This document shows, piece after piece, positions 30,666 to 35,089 of a stretch of DNA of 44,050 bases (position 1 is the stretch's first letter; the number at the start of each line of letters is the position of its first letter). The stretch covers positions 1 through 44,050 of the forward strand of contig JAFGJG010000147.1 of the NCBI GenBank assembly GCA_016929195.1. The letters are read 5' to 3'. This stretch comes from Thermoleophilaceae bacterium (lineage in GTDB: Bacteria > Actinomycetota > Thermoleophilia > Solirubrobacterales > Thermoleophilaceae). Both the position numbers and the translations under genes were made by a program. Below the pieces are notes generated by a model, which saw only the letters and a list, made by a program, of their open reading frames with translations, had not been told where the DNA came from and did no database searches.

Positions 30666-31546
30666 TGGCGGTCCTGGTCGACAGGGACACGCGCCTCTGC
30701 GTTTCCGGCATCACCGGCCGCGAGGGCACCTTCCACTCGCTCAACAACCGCAACTACGGCACCCAGGTCGTCTCCGGCGTGACCCCCGGCAAGGGCGGCC
30801 AGGACGTGGAGGGCATCCCGGTCTTCGACACCTTCCACAGGGCCGTCGAGGAGACCGGCGCCAACACGGCGATGATCTTCGTCCCGCCGCGGTTCGCGGC
30901 CGACTCGATCCTCGAGGCCGAGGACGCGGGCATCGAGCTGATCGTCGCGATCACGGAGGGCATCCCCGCTCACGACGAGCTGCGCGTCTACAACCACCTC
31001 GCCCGCAACCCGAGCGTGCGGCTGGTCGGGCCGAACTGCCCAGGGATCCTGTCGCCCGGCAAGGCCAACGTGGGGATCATCCCGGCGTCCTTCTTCAAGG
31101 AGGGCAACGTCGGCGTGGTGTCGCGCTCCGGCACGCTGACCTACCAGATCGGCAACGAGCTGGCCCAGAGCGGGTTCGGGAACAGCTCGATCGTCGGCAT
31201 CGGCGGCGACCCGGTGCCGGGCTCGAGCTTCATCGACATCATCGAGCTGTTCGAGGCCGACCCGGAGACCGAGCTGATCGTGCTCTCCGGCGAGATCGGA
31301 GGCGACGCGGAGGAGCGCGCGGCGGACCACATCGCCGAGCACGTGTCGAAGCCGGTGGTCGCCTACATCGCAGGCTTCACCGCACCGCCCGGCAAGACGA
31401 TGGGCCACGCCGGCGCGATCGTCTCCGGCTCGGCGGGCACGGCGCAGGCGAAGGCCGAGGCGCTCGAGGCCAAGGGCGTGCGCGTGGGCCGCAACCCCAC
31501 GCAGGTGGCCGAGATCGCGATCGAAGTCCTGGGCGCGCGGGTCTAG
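30665..31546 (+). CDS. sucD: Succinyl-CoA synthetase alpha subunit
   Basis: A 293-residue CoA-binding subunit. The Rossmann start [20 protein letters not shown], the middle [18 protein letters not shown] and the phosphohistidine segment [13 protein letters not shown] are all present, so the active-site His is intact. Length and order are normal. It is co-translated with sucC through a one-base overlap (TGATG). Its stop overlaps the convergent RskA-like gene stop (CTAG). Confidence 0.95.
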
Positions 31547-32379
31547 CCCGCGCCCTTCAGCAGCTCGTCGACCGGAATCCGCATGACGCTCGCCCCGCTG
31601 TGATTCGGGTTGTCGTCGATGGGCTCCTGGGAGACGTCGATGAACCTGTAGTCCGCCGGGTCGGCGGGAAGAACCTCGTCCACCTCGAGGCTCGTGCCGA
31701 CCACGCGGTCGATCAGGACCGCATCGGTCACCGAGTTGTAGAGCCAGACGGCGTAGGCCTCCTCGCGCGGCGGCAGCCCGCTCAGCGACATGATCAGCCG
31801 GCTGTCCTCGCCGCTGCCCTCGATCCGGGCCGTCCCCCTGGCGGGGAAGTCGGACAGCACCGGCTCGAGCTCCACCGGCTTGGACGCCGGGGCGGCCGGC
31901 GTCTCGGCGGTCGCGGCGGGCTTGTCGCTCTTGCCGTCGTCGTCCGCGTCGCCGCCGAACAGCAGCAGGCCGGCCACCCCGCCGAGCAGGGCGCCCGCGA
32001 TCACGACCAGGATCGCCGCACGCGGCCGGCGCCGGCGTGTGGACGGCTTCGGGGCGGCTGGCGTTGGCGGCGGCGGCGGCGGGGGCTCGGGCGGAGCGCT
32101 CACGAAGCCGCCGCCTTCGTCCGGCCACTGGTCCGCCGGCAGGCCCGCGAGGACCTCGGGCAACCTGGCGCGTTCGGCCTGGTCGTGAATGCCGACCTGC
32201 ATGGCGATCCGGTCCAGGGCCGCCTCGCGGCGGGGCGCGACCTCTTCCGGCTGCAAACGGAGCACAGCGGCCACCACGTCGTCCTTGACCTTCCGGCGTA
32301 CCGACAGGTCCAGGAGGGCCCGATCCTCCGGAGGGGCCTGGAAAAGCGATCTCCCGATTTCTCGATCCCGGGTTAGCAT
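31543..32379 (-). CDS. Membrane protein with RskA-like (anti-sigma-K) outer domain
   Basis: A 278-residue single-pass protein. Residues 1-95 are cytoplasmic and helical; then comes a Pro-rich linker (about 96-112), a basic stretch TRRRRPR, one membrane helix (ILVVIAGALLGGVAGLLLF, about 122-141) and an outer domain ending …LIMSLSGLPPREEAYAVWLYNS…, like the RskA C-terminal domain. No sigma factor lies next to it, and the N-terminal half lacks a clear zinc anti-sigma motif, so an anti-sigma role is only possible. ATG 32379 lies within the -10 box of the divergent DUF4397 gene; TTG 32385 is an alternative start. Confidence 0.65.
   Translation of the reverse strand: MLTRDREIGRSLFQAPPEDRALLDLSVRRKVKDDVVAAVLRLQPEEVAPRREAALDRIAMQVGIHDQAERARLPEVLAGLPADQWPDEGGGFVSAPPEPPPPPPPTPAAPKPSTRRRRPRAAILVVIAGALLGGVAGLLLFGGDADDDGKSDKPAATAETPAAPASKPVELEPVLSDFPARGTARIEGSGEDSRLIMSLSGLPPREEAYAVWLYNSVTDAVLIDRVVGTSLEVDEVLPADPADYRFIDVSQEPIDDNPNHSGASVMRIPVDELLKGAG
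32374..32379 (+). promoter_or_regulatory. -10 box of the DUF4397 gene
   Basis: TAGCAT lies 6 bases before ATG 32386 and includes, on the other strand, the ATG start codon of the divergent RskA-like gene. Confidence 0.55.
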
Positions 32380-32385
32380 GGCCAA

Positions 32386-34404
32386 ATGAAGCGAAGCAGA
32401 GCCAAGAAGGGCGCGACGCTTGGAGCAGCCGCTCTCACAACGATCGTAATACCGACTATGCCTGTCGAGGCGCAGTCAGACCAGACGCAGGTGCGGTTCC
32501 TGCACGCCGTCTCGGGCGCCGGACCCGCTTCGCTGCTCATCGAGAAGGGCAGCCCGCGCCTTCCCTCCTCCTTCGCCAAGCCCAGCGGCTACCAGGTCTT
32601 TCGTCCAGGTCAGGTACGGCTCCGGCTTATCCTGAACGGCCAGTCTTCGCCGATCGCATCCGAGACCGTCCGGCTCGGGTCGGGACGGCACACCGTCGTC
32701 GCCGTCGGCAGCAACAACGGCGTGGACCTGCTCGTCTACCGCGACGACGGCGTCGAGGCCGGCAAGGCCACGCTCCGCGCGATCCACGCCGCCTCAGAGG
32801 TCGGCAGCGCCGACGTTAAGCTCGACGGAAAGGTCGTCGTCAGCGGCGTGGGCCTCGGGGACGCCACCGGCTACCTGCCCGTTCCGCCCGGCCCCCACTC
32901 CGTGGCCGTCACCCGCCCCGGCGGGAAGGGGATGCCCATCGTCAAGGCCGAGGTCCGGTCCGTGGCCGGCACGGCCTCCACCGCCTTCGTCGTCGGCAGC
33001 GCCGGCATGCCCGCCCAGGTCGTCCTGACCGATGACGGCAGCGCCGGCCCCCAGGCGGCTCCGGCCACCGGGCTCGGCGGCGCCACGTCGGGCAGCGGCT
33101 GGCTGCTGATCATCGGGTCGTCGCTCATCGGCGGTTCGCTCGGTGGCGCCTCCTACGTCCTCGCGCGGCGCACGCGCAAGCGCGGCTCGCTCCACGTGAT
33201 CGAGACCGCGGCCGAGCCGCCCGCCCTTCCCGCACCCTCGTCCGTGGCCGCCGGCCCGCCCGTGGGAGCGGACGAGGAGCCGCCCGTCGAGGCCGACGCG
33301 ATCACGGATGAGCAGCCAGCAATCGAGACCACAGTCGTAGAGGAGCCAGCCATGGATGAGCCGGTCGTCGAGCAGACCCCAGTCGAGGAGCCCGTGGCGG
33401 CGGAGCCCGTCATCGAGGGCACCGCCGTCGAGGAGCCCGCGCCGGCGAAGCCCGCGCCGGTGTTCGCAGCCGCGCCCGTCCTGCCGCTCCCGCCGCTGCC
33501 GCCCAAGCCGGTCGTCGAGCCCGTGGCTGCCGCCACCGAGGTCGAGGCGCCCGCCAACGGCAACGGCCACCACGAGGAGGCGCTGCCCACCCCGCCGCTG
33601 TGGTCGCCGCCGCCGAGCGAGCGCTGGGAGCCCTCCGAGCCGACCGGCCGCTTCACCCGCGAGACGCCGTCGGAGGACGAGGAGCAGGCCGAGACGCCGC
33701 CGCTCTCCCGCTTCACACGCCCCGACCCGGCGCCCGAGGCCGAGCCCGCGCCGGCCACGCCGGCCCGGCTGCTCTTCAACGGCCCGCCACGGATCGCCGA
33801 GCCGGCACCCGCGGAGACCGAGCGTCCGCTCTCGCCGTGGCCCACGCGCCCCGCTGTCGAGTCGTACCCGCCCGCACCCGCCGCGGCGCCCGAGCCCGCC
33901 CCGGAGCCTGTGGCCGAGACCGAGCCCGCCGTGGCCCCGGAGCCCACCGATCCCGTCGGCGCGGAAGCCGAGGAGTCGTGGACCGGGTCGTGGATCGCCG
34001 AGCCCGCCGCCGAGCCCGCGGACACGCCGGAGCCGCCCGCGACGTTCTCCACCGAGGCGCCGGCCGAGGAGCCGGTCGCCGAGGAGGACGCTGCGCCGAC
34101 GCCGCTCTGGGAGCCGTTCGTGCCGGAGCCCGAGTTCGAGGTCCAGGTGGAGCTCGAGGAGCCCGTGGCCGCCGTCGAGGAGCCCGCCGCCGTCGAGGAG
34201 CCCGTGGCGGCCGAGGAGCCGGAGCCCGCTCCGGCCCCCGCCGCAGGCAACGGCGTCAGCACGTGGAGCAGCACGACGCCGCGACCCGGCAGCACCGTCG
34301 GCTCGGCCGGCACCGCCGGCAAGGTCAGCTTCCTGGTCGTCTCCGGAGCCGCGCTGGTCGTCACCGGCCTCGTCGCAGCGCGCCGCGGTGGGCGCCACCA
34401 CTAG
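32386..34404 (+). CDS. DUF4397 surface protein with two hydrophobic, basic-ended segments
   Basis: A 672-residue exported protein. Residues 1-30 are a signal sequence (ending VEAQ), 32-215 a DUF4397 beta domain (TQVRFLHAVSGAGPASLLIE). Residues 225-266 look like a cell-wall sorting signal: APATG, a hydrophobic helix at about 239-260, then RRTRKR. Yet 400 residues follow: an acidic Pro/Glu/Ala-rich region with repeated V-E-E-P units, then a second hydrophobic segment (about 649-665) and basic tail ARRGGRHH. The sortase gene overlaps its end by 17 bases, so this is probably its substrate. Two tails in one chain are unusual. Confidence 0.8.
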   Translation: MKRSRAKKGATLGAAALTTIVIPTMPVEAQSDQTQVRFLHAVSGAGPASLLIEKGSPRLPSSFAKPSGYQVFRPGQVRLRLILNGQSSPIASETVRLGSGRHTVVAVGSNNGVDLLVYRDDGVEAGKATLRAIHAASEVGSADVKLDGKVVVSGVGLGDATGYLPVPPGPHSVAVTRPGGKGMPIVKAEVRSVAGTASTAFVVGSAGMPAQVVLTDDGSAGPQAAPATGLGGATSGSGWLLIIGSSLIGGSLGGASYVLARRTRKRGSLHVIETAAEPPALPAPSSVAAGPPVGADEEPPVEADAITDEQPAIETTVVEEPAMDEPVVEQTPVEEPVAAEPVIEGTAVEEPAPAKPAPVFAAAPVLPLPPLPPKPVVEPVAAATEVEAPANGNGHHEEALPTPPLWSPPPSERWEPSEPTGRFTRETPSEDEEQAETPPLSRFTRPDPAPEAEPAPATPARLLFNGPPRIAEPAPAETERPLSPWPTRPAVESYPPAPAAAPEPAPEPVAETEPAVAPEPTDPVGAEAEESWTGSWIAEPAAEPADTPEPPATFSTEAPAEEPVAEEDAAPTPLWEPFVPEPEFEVQVELEEPVAAVEEPAAVEEPVAAEEPEPAPAPAAGNGVSTWSSTTPRPGSTVGSAGTAGKVSFLVVSGAALVVTGLVAARRGGRHH

Positions 34405-35089
34405 ACGCCTCCGGCCGGGACTCGGCCTCTTCCTCTCGATCGTCGTCTCCGGCGCGCTGGCCGGAGGCGCGGCAGCCTGGCTGAGGCCCGACGACCGGTC
34501 CATCGACCTGTCCCCGGAGCCGACCGAGGCGCAGACGCCGACGGTGGGCTCCCTGCTCGCCGCGCTCACGCTCGACCCCCGCAGCGCCGGCCTGAGGCTC
34601 CCCACGGCAAGCGCGCGCCCCCGCCGCCACGCGCCCGCGGCCGCCCCCGGGCGCCGGCCGGGCGTCCCGACGCGCATCACGATCACCGCCGCGGGCAGCT
34701 CCGGCCCGGTGGACCGCATGGGCGTCTCCAACGGGCAGCTGAGCGTCCCGCCGCCCGGCCGCGCAGGCTGGTTCGCCGCGGGCCCGCGGCCCGGCGAGAT
34801 CGGGCGCGCCGTGATCGTGAGCCACGTGGACTCGAAGGAGGGCCCGGCCCTCTTCTACAGCCTGCTGCAGCAGGGCCGCGGCAGCAGCATCACCGTGCGC
34901 GACAGCCGCGGCGCCACCCGCCGGTTCGCCGTCGTGCGGCGCAGGCAGATCGAGAAGAGCCACTTCCCGCGCGGATCGGTCTACGGGCCGTCGCGGCGGC
35001 GGATGCTCGTGCTGGTCACCTGCGGGGGGCCGTTCTCGCAGGACACGGGCTATCGCGACAACGTGATCCTGTACGCGCGGGCCATCTGA
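34388..35089 (+). CDS. Sortase, class F-like
   Basis: A 233-residue membrane-anchored transpeptidase. One N-terminal helix (about 10-31) is followed by a Pro/Arg-rich linker and the sortase beta barrel. The triad is His146 (VIVSHVDSKEG), Cys212 (LVLVTCGGPF) and Arg223 (TGYRDNVIL). The short form, the Cys-Gly-Gly-Pro-Phe signature and the neighbour fit actinobacterial class F (or E) sortases, which cut LPxTG/LAxTG-type signals and link proteins to the cell wall. GTG 34388 overlaps the DUF4397 gene by 17 bases, so production of enzyme and likely substrate is coupled. Confidence 0.85.
   Translation: MGATTRRLRPGLGLFLSIVVSGALAGGAAAWLRPDDRSIDLSPEPTEAQTPTVGSLLAALTLDPRSAGLRLPTASARPRRHAPAAAPGRRPGVPTRITITAAGSSGPVDRMGVSNGQLSVPPPGRAGWFAAGPRPGEIGRAVIVSHVDSKEGPALFYSLLQQGRGSSITVRDSRGATRRFAVVRRRQIEKSHFPRGSVYGPSRRRMLVLVTCGGPFSQDTGYRDNVILYARAI

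Follow-up and report, generated by a model that had tools for sequence, protein, structure and literature searches.

What becomes of a cell wall sorting signal that lies in the middle of a protein? Such signals are built, in this order, from a motif, a hydrophobic segment and basic residues (PMC3297441). The question is raised by a locus in a 44,050-nucleotide stretch of Thermoleophilaceae DNA (hereafter the window; contig C169 of a metagenome-assembled genome (MAG) of 3.46 Mb, 98% complete), where the gene of a DUF4397 protein overlaps that of a sortase. The DUF4397 protein carries APATG, a hydrophobic segment (segment 1) and RRTRKR, and then runs on through a long acidic tail to a second hydrophobic segment (segment 2). 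The reading that we favor, with a probability of roughly 0.55, is that the sortase would cut the protein between the threonine and the glycine of APATG and that the acidic tail would stay in the cytoplasm.

The internal signal and its terminal counterparts

A sequence-only reading of the window had proposed that residues 225-266 of the DUF4397 protein resemble a sorting signal, and the comparison with relatives bears this out. We aligned the protein with six homologues, one from the same genome and five from family- and order-level genomes. All seven proteins share P226, T228, G229 and R262, and in all of them except the window protein and its paralogue the P-x-T-G signal is C-terminal, the five homologues of other genomes terminating 8-16 residues past the hydrophobic segment. 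Because P-x-T-G is invariant and the relatives end there, the internal APATG is, on the evidence of the alignment, homologous to their terminal sorting signal. The same reading had named a case that would speak against it, namely homologues that have lost APATG and kept the C-terminal segment; we observed the reverse, with APATG kept and the tail absent in the relatives.

Like LPXTG-type substrates, the window protein has the motif first, then the hydrophobic segment and last the basic residues; it differs from them in having APATG instead of LPXTG and an internal instead of a terminal signal. All three elements are present (Table 1); C-terminal placement is not, as 413 residues follow segment 1 and 406 follow RRTRKR. 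Among the open reading frames of at least 100 amino acids in the window and on the paralogue's contig, only the window protein and its DUF4397 paralogue have P-x-T-G together with a hydrophobic stretch and basic residues, which, together with the invariance of P226, T228 and G229, argues that the arrangement is beyond chance.

The paralogue belongs to a second DUF4397/sortase pair of the same genome, on contig C107. It has APATG, a hydrophobic segment and RRR, followed by a basic, proline-rich tail of 49 residues (counted from two alanines before RRR) that holds no second hydrophobic segment. This tail is best read, from its sequence, as cytoplasmic. The sortases of the two pairs are sisters (64% identical, clade support 0.948), which makes a duplication of the pair within this lineage probable.

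Upstream of the signal, the protein is a clear member of its Pfam family, the whole chain scoring 84.6 bits against PF14344 (curated score 30.6). An AlphaFold2 model of residues 1-272 (window positions 32386-33201) has a mean predicted local distance difference test score of 79, most of the domain part reaching about 90 or higher, and is all-beta across both DUF4397 domains. Compared with solved structures, the model comes closest to the extracellular domains of PepT1 and PepT2, two peptide transporters of mammals (E down to 6e-10), with TM-scores of about 0.5 on the query and 0.7 on the 189-residue PepT2 domain. The PepT-like fold of the modeled pair suggests a binding or spacer module, without assigning a function.

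The acidic segment behind the signal and the hydrophobic, basic-ended tail that had been described from the letters alone are both found in the translation (Table 1). The acidic part, 370 residues long, contains 22.7% P, 17.8% E, 17.8% A and 8.4% V. Read in the DUF4397 frame, the tail has synonymous codon scores of 0.60-0.77 and the domain part 0.63-0.84, against at most 0.19 for either of the other two forward frames; some reverse frames score about equally in parts of the tail. Since the scores in the DUF4397 frame match those of the domain part, the tail is truly coding and belongs to one continuous gene, and codon usage rules out a frameshift or a wrong frame there.

A search of 41 genomes with the 405 tail residues gave no convincing relative and a single weak match of 62 residues, on which ground we reject the idea that the tail is an ancestral or mobile domain. 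Derivation from the 49-residue tail of the paralogue is unsupported by alignment, with 241 of 1000 shuffles reaching the alignment score; when the paralogue's tail was compared with the whole window tail, 44 of 500 did so. Judged by this distribution, the long tail is a lineage-specific addition and not ancestral. Separately, a NusA-like protein of a family member (L019, 5557-6948) ends in a VEEPPVEEPP repeat extension that reaches the contig end. Because a VEEP-rich extension occurs on NusA, sequence of this type can be cytoplasmic, and VEEP-type tails here, as far as their sequences tell, are not confined to surface proteins.

Fate of the signal and position of the tail

We infer export, cleavage, wall linkage and the position of the tail as follows. 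The signal peptide would export the two DUF4397 domains until APATG, segment 1 and RRTRKR halt the process. The membrane-bound, class F-like sortase would then cut between T and G, and the DUF4397 part would become wall-linked. The approximately 400 acidic, low-complexity residues past the stop-transfer signal would probably remain in the cytoplasm, with segment 1, and perhaps segment 2 as well, tying them to the membrane. It is plausible that segment 1 and the five basic residues act as such a stop-transfer signal. The sequence after segment 1 can be argued from lineage to lie in the cytoplasm, because the tail of the paralogue is basic and lacks a second segment.

Several observations weigh against this reading. 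With a Kyte-Doolittle (KD) hydropathy of 1.48, segment 1 ranks last among 85 comparable terminal segments from sortase-linked relatives, at the lower edge of their range (1.48-2.66, median 2.02), and for this reason it might fail to stop export. Its Hessa-type sum of 3.5 lies inside the range of comparable segments (-2.2 to 5.2). Segment 2 is followed by its basic residues, at an end that would lie outside in the topology we propose; as segment 1 is also followed by basic residues, one of the two segments has to go against the positive-inside rule or else does not span the membrane. Finally, the window tail has no detectable homology to that of the paralogue, and a long tail is known from one MAG only.

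We weighed three other explanations. It is possible, though rather unlikely, that the signal is left unprocessed, in which case the protein would sit in the membrane in type I orientation, its DUF4397 part outside and its acidic tail in the cytoplasm, and the sortase would serve other substrates. A plain anchor needs merely a hydrophobic segment and five basic residues, and with three other sortases encoded in the genome, the window pair need not be exclusive. However, P-x-T-G has been kept in both the window protein and its paralogue even though both continue past it, and both pairs have kept the overlap with the sortase gene.

Less probable still is a shift of the working signal to the C-terminus. 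Segment 1 would then be no stop, the acidic part would form an outer stalk, and STVGSAGTAGK, segment 2 and RRGGRHH would be the signal in use; the two candidate cut sites would lie in the peptides ...QAAPATGLGG (APATG site) and ...PGSTVGSAGTAG. Acidic, proline-rich stalks are common ahead of sorting signals, the hydropathy of segment 2 (KD 2.29) is near the median of terminal segments, only 7 residues come after it, much as in the relatives, and the GSAG ahead of it is similar to a motif of VPAGSAGL type in DUF4397 proteins of actinomycetes. Against this, RRTRKR behind segment 1 would need to be exported, segment 2 has no P-x-T-G, and the paralogue does without a second segment altogether. A sorting-tail profile gave 11.6 bits for segment 1 and 9.6 bits for segment 2, but about 6% of unrelated membrane decoy segments (counted by eye, with true substrates set aside) also reach 9.6 bits. 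Recognition of segment 2 as a sorting tail by the profile is thus unspecific, and the profile does not decide the topology.

That the tail is normally not made, and reflects an assembly artefact of the metagenome or a recent read-through mutation, is very improbable: the gene does come from a single MAG, with same-genus genomes lacking it and no close relative carrying it, but codon usage is unchanged through the tail without a change of frame, the tail reaches into the overlap with the sortase start, and the sister pair is tailed too.

If the sortase cuts at APATG and the tail stays inside, as we favor, the tail might serve, as a guess, as a cytoplasmic tether or as a sensor coupled to sorting. 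In a more elaborate version, the substrate would report its own sorting, with release or an altered state of the acidic cytoplasmic remnant acting as the signal, perhaps together with the adjacent membrane-bound regulator; we consider this a long shot. The C-peptide signaling of Streptococcus gordonii (Hall 2019, as cited in PMC11502775) shares this idea of a signal carried by what sortase cleavage leaves in the membrane. A remnant sensed by a membrane kinase would mark such signaling; we saw no kinase in the window cassette, and a divergent sigma4-like/RskA_C-like membrane regulator is adjacent. The window remnant would measure about 440 residues, a large acidic stretch among them.

Regarding internal sorting signals, we found nothing decisive in the literature searched. 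Navarre and Schneewind, in 1994, are said to have placed the protein A signal between two reporters, whereupon the internal signal was reportedly cleaved and the C-terminal reporter left in the cell; sorting would, on that account, tolerate an extension on the cytoplasmic side. The window protein differs from this fusion, which was an artificial construct and involved another sortase class.

The sortase and its cassette

The sortase is a member of the Pfam family Sortase PF04203 (62.2 bits, cut-off 26.6, E=5e-17). Its best model is the NCBIfam class F model NF033748, and since the score of 130.2 bits falls below the curated cut-off of 166, we name the enzyme class F-like; its close relatives are likewise under this cut-off (120-150 bits). 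His146 and Cys212 are invariant in 85/85 aligned class F sortases. Asn225 is also invariant, while R223, present in the window sortase, is matched by an Arg in only 42 of the 85, and the third catalytic residue of class F sortases may, from this alignment, differ from the textbook Arg. A sequence search with the sortase profile gave no match to a solved structure at E 0.001. Anchored by its N-terminal hydrophobic segment, the enzyme would have its catalytic part outside, the side on which APATG would be expected too. At another sortase locus of the same genome (L029, 363-1199), the neighbor carries an ordinary terminal LAETG tail.

Table 1. Features of the DUF4397/sortase locus, in window positions unless a locus is named.
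Feature	Position	Strand	Basis or remarks
DUF4397 protein gene	32386..34404	+	ATG start, 672 aa; sorting-like signal inside the chain, long acidic tail
N-terminal export signal, residues 1-30 (MKRSRAKKG..VEAQ)	32386..32475	+	Inspection: basic n-region, hydrophobic 9-27, KD 1.44
DUF4397 domain 1, residues 35-144	32488..32817	+	PF14344, 45 bits, above cut-off
DUF4397 domain 2, residues 128-222	32767..33051	+	PF14344, 56 bits, above cut-off
APATG, predicted sortase site APAT/G, residues 225-229	33058..33072	+	P-x-T-G conserved in homologues
Hydrophobic segment 1, residues 241-259	33106..33162	+	KD 1.48 (best 19-residue stretch)
RRTRKR (basic stop behind segment 1), residues 261-266	33166..33183	+	Relatives end here or soon after
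Acidic P/E/A/V-rich tail, residues 267-636	33184..34293	+	Net charge -63; short VEEP-type tandem repeats
Hydrophobic segment 2, residues 647-665	34324..34380	+	KD 2.29; followed by RRGGRHH (666-672)
Class F-like sortase gene	34388..35089	+	233 aa, GTG start; N-terminal hydrophobic segment, His146 and Cys212 kept
17-base overlap of DUF4397 and sortase genes	34388..34404	+	
Divergent neighbor gene	31543..32385	-	Sigma-70 region-4-like N-terminus, one hydrophobic segment, RskA_C-like outer domain
Regulator-like gene copies	L014 869-1741; L015 5117-6133; L017 7384-8643; L018 677-1477		

The 17-base overlap of the two genes, on which the proposal of an enzyme-substrate pair had leaned, is found with the GTG start; this start is one choice, as the sortase frame is open upstream to 33356. 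The genes of the paralogous pair overlap by 8 bases and those of the L018 pair by 4. The gene pair is best explained, on comparative grounds, as an enzyme and its dedicated substrate.

Together with the divergent gene, the pair forms a cassette flanked by sucCD and an aminotransferase gene. The arrangement in genome G004 is identical, and in G007 sucD, regulator, DUF4397 gene and sortase gene are present with the aminotransferase gene further along. In G001, which is of the same genus, about 270 bases separate sucD from the aminotransferase gene and the cassette is absent; in G003 and G015, the regulator lies between these two genes and the DUF4397 gene is absent. A regulator-like gene also stands beside the pair in L014-L018. 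Pfam RskA_C and Sigma70_r4_2 match the regulator homologues in L015 and L018, and the window copy has no Pfam match; against the NCBIfam anti-sigma factor model, the regulator reaches E=2e-7, under the cut-off. From these features the divergent gene looks like a membrane-bound regulator and is probably that of the cassette.

DUF4397 proteins as genomic partners of class F sortases

The pairing of DUF4397 with class F sortases is widespread in Actinomycetota and thus conserved far beyond this genome, which lends support to the earlier proposal that enzyme and substrate are encoded together. Scanning GTDB genomes with the sortase alignment yielded 80 loci (L045-L124), and DUF4397, sought with an iterated profile, was present in 54 of them, a figure biased towards DUF4397-linked sortases because the query sortases were themselves so linked. 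Pfam DUF4397 was confirmed in 42 of the 43 members tested. An evenly drawn sample of 396 genomes from the phylum contained 55 with a match.

Like the window protein, the DUF4397 proteins beside class F sortases have a signal peptide, a DUF4397 pair, a motif, a hydrophobic segment and basic residues, with the class F sortase gene immediately downstream; the motif of the actinomycete proteins is of the type V-P-[AGS]-G-x-A-G-L instead of A-P-x-T-G. They differ in where they end. At the class F loci, 58 DUF4397 proteins stop 5-18 residues (median 9) past the last hydrophobic segment, and in the phylum sample all fetched sortase-linked DUF4397 proteins do so after 4-11 residues, the window protein excepted; across the relatives, then, the chain stops 4-18 residues past the segment, and that of the window protein runs on and includes a second one. 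The search that the earlier reading had suggested, for DUF4397 proteins with internal tails near class F sortases, found the partner and not the tail, which in its long form occurs in the window protein only. The gene pair itself is an ordinary class F sortase/DUF4397 pair, and the approximately 400 residues beyond the sorting signal are the novelty.

Four class F loci without a DUF4397 match (L062, L066, L075, L079) encode a different upstream protein with a GGVNTGG-like terminal tail, which is probably another type of substrate.

The physiological role of class F sortases has been stated to be unknown, and in Actinoplanes missouriensis the quadruple deletion of class F sortase genes gave no phenotype (PMC13251363). 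In the literature searched, we found no paper naming both DUF4397 and sortase. The comparison gives class F sortases a recurrent genomic partner, and this recurrence suggests, at the level of gene neighborhoods, that DUF4397 proteins are a dedicated substrate of the enzyme class. The window protein is a natural case of a mid-protein sorting signal, which could serve to test the need for a terminal signal and the fate of the remainder of the protein. The association of DUF4397 proteins with class F sortases may be the more useful outcome than the single case of the window tail.
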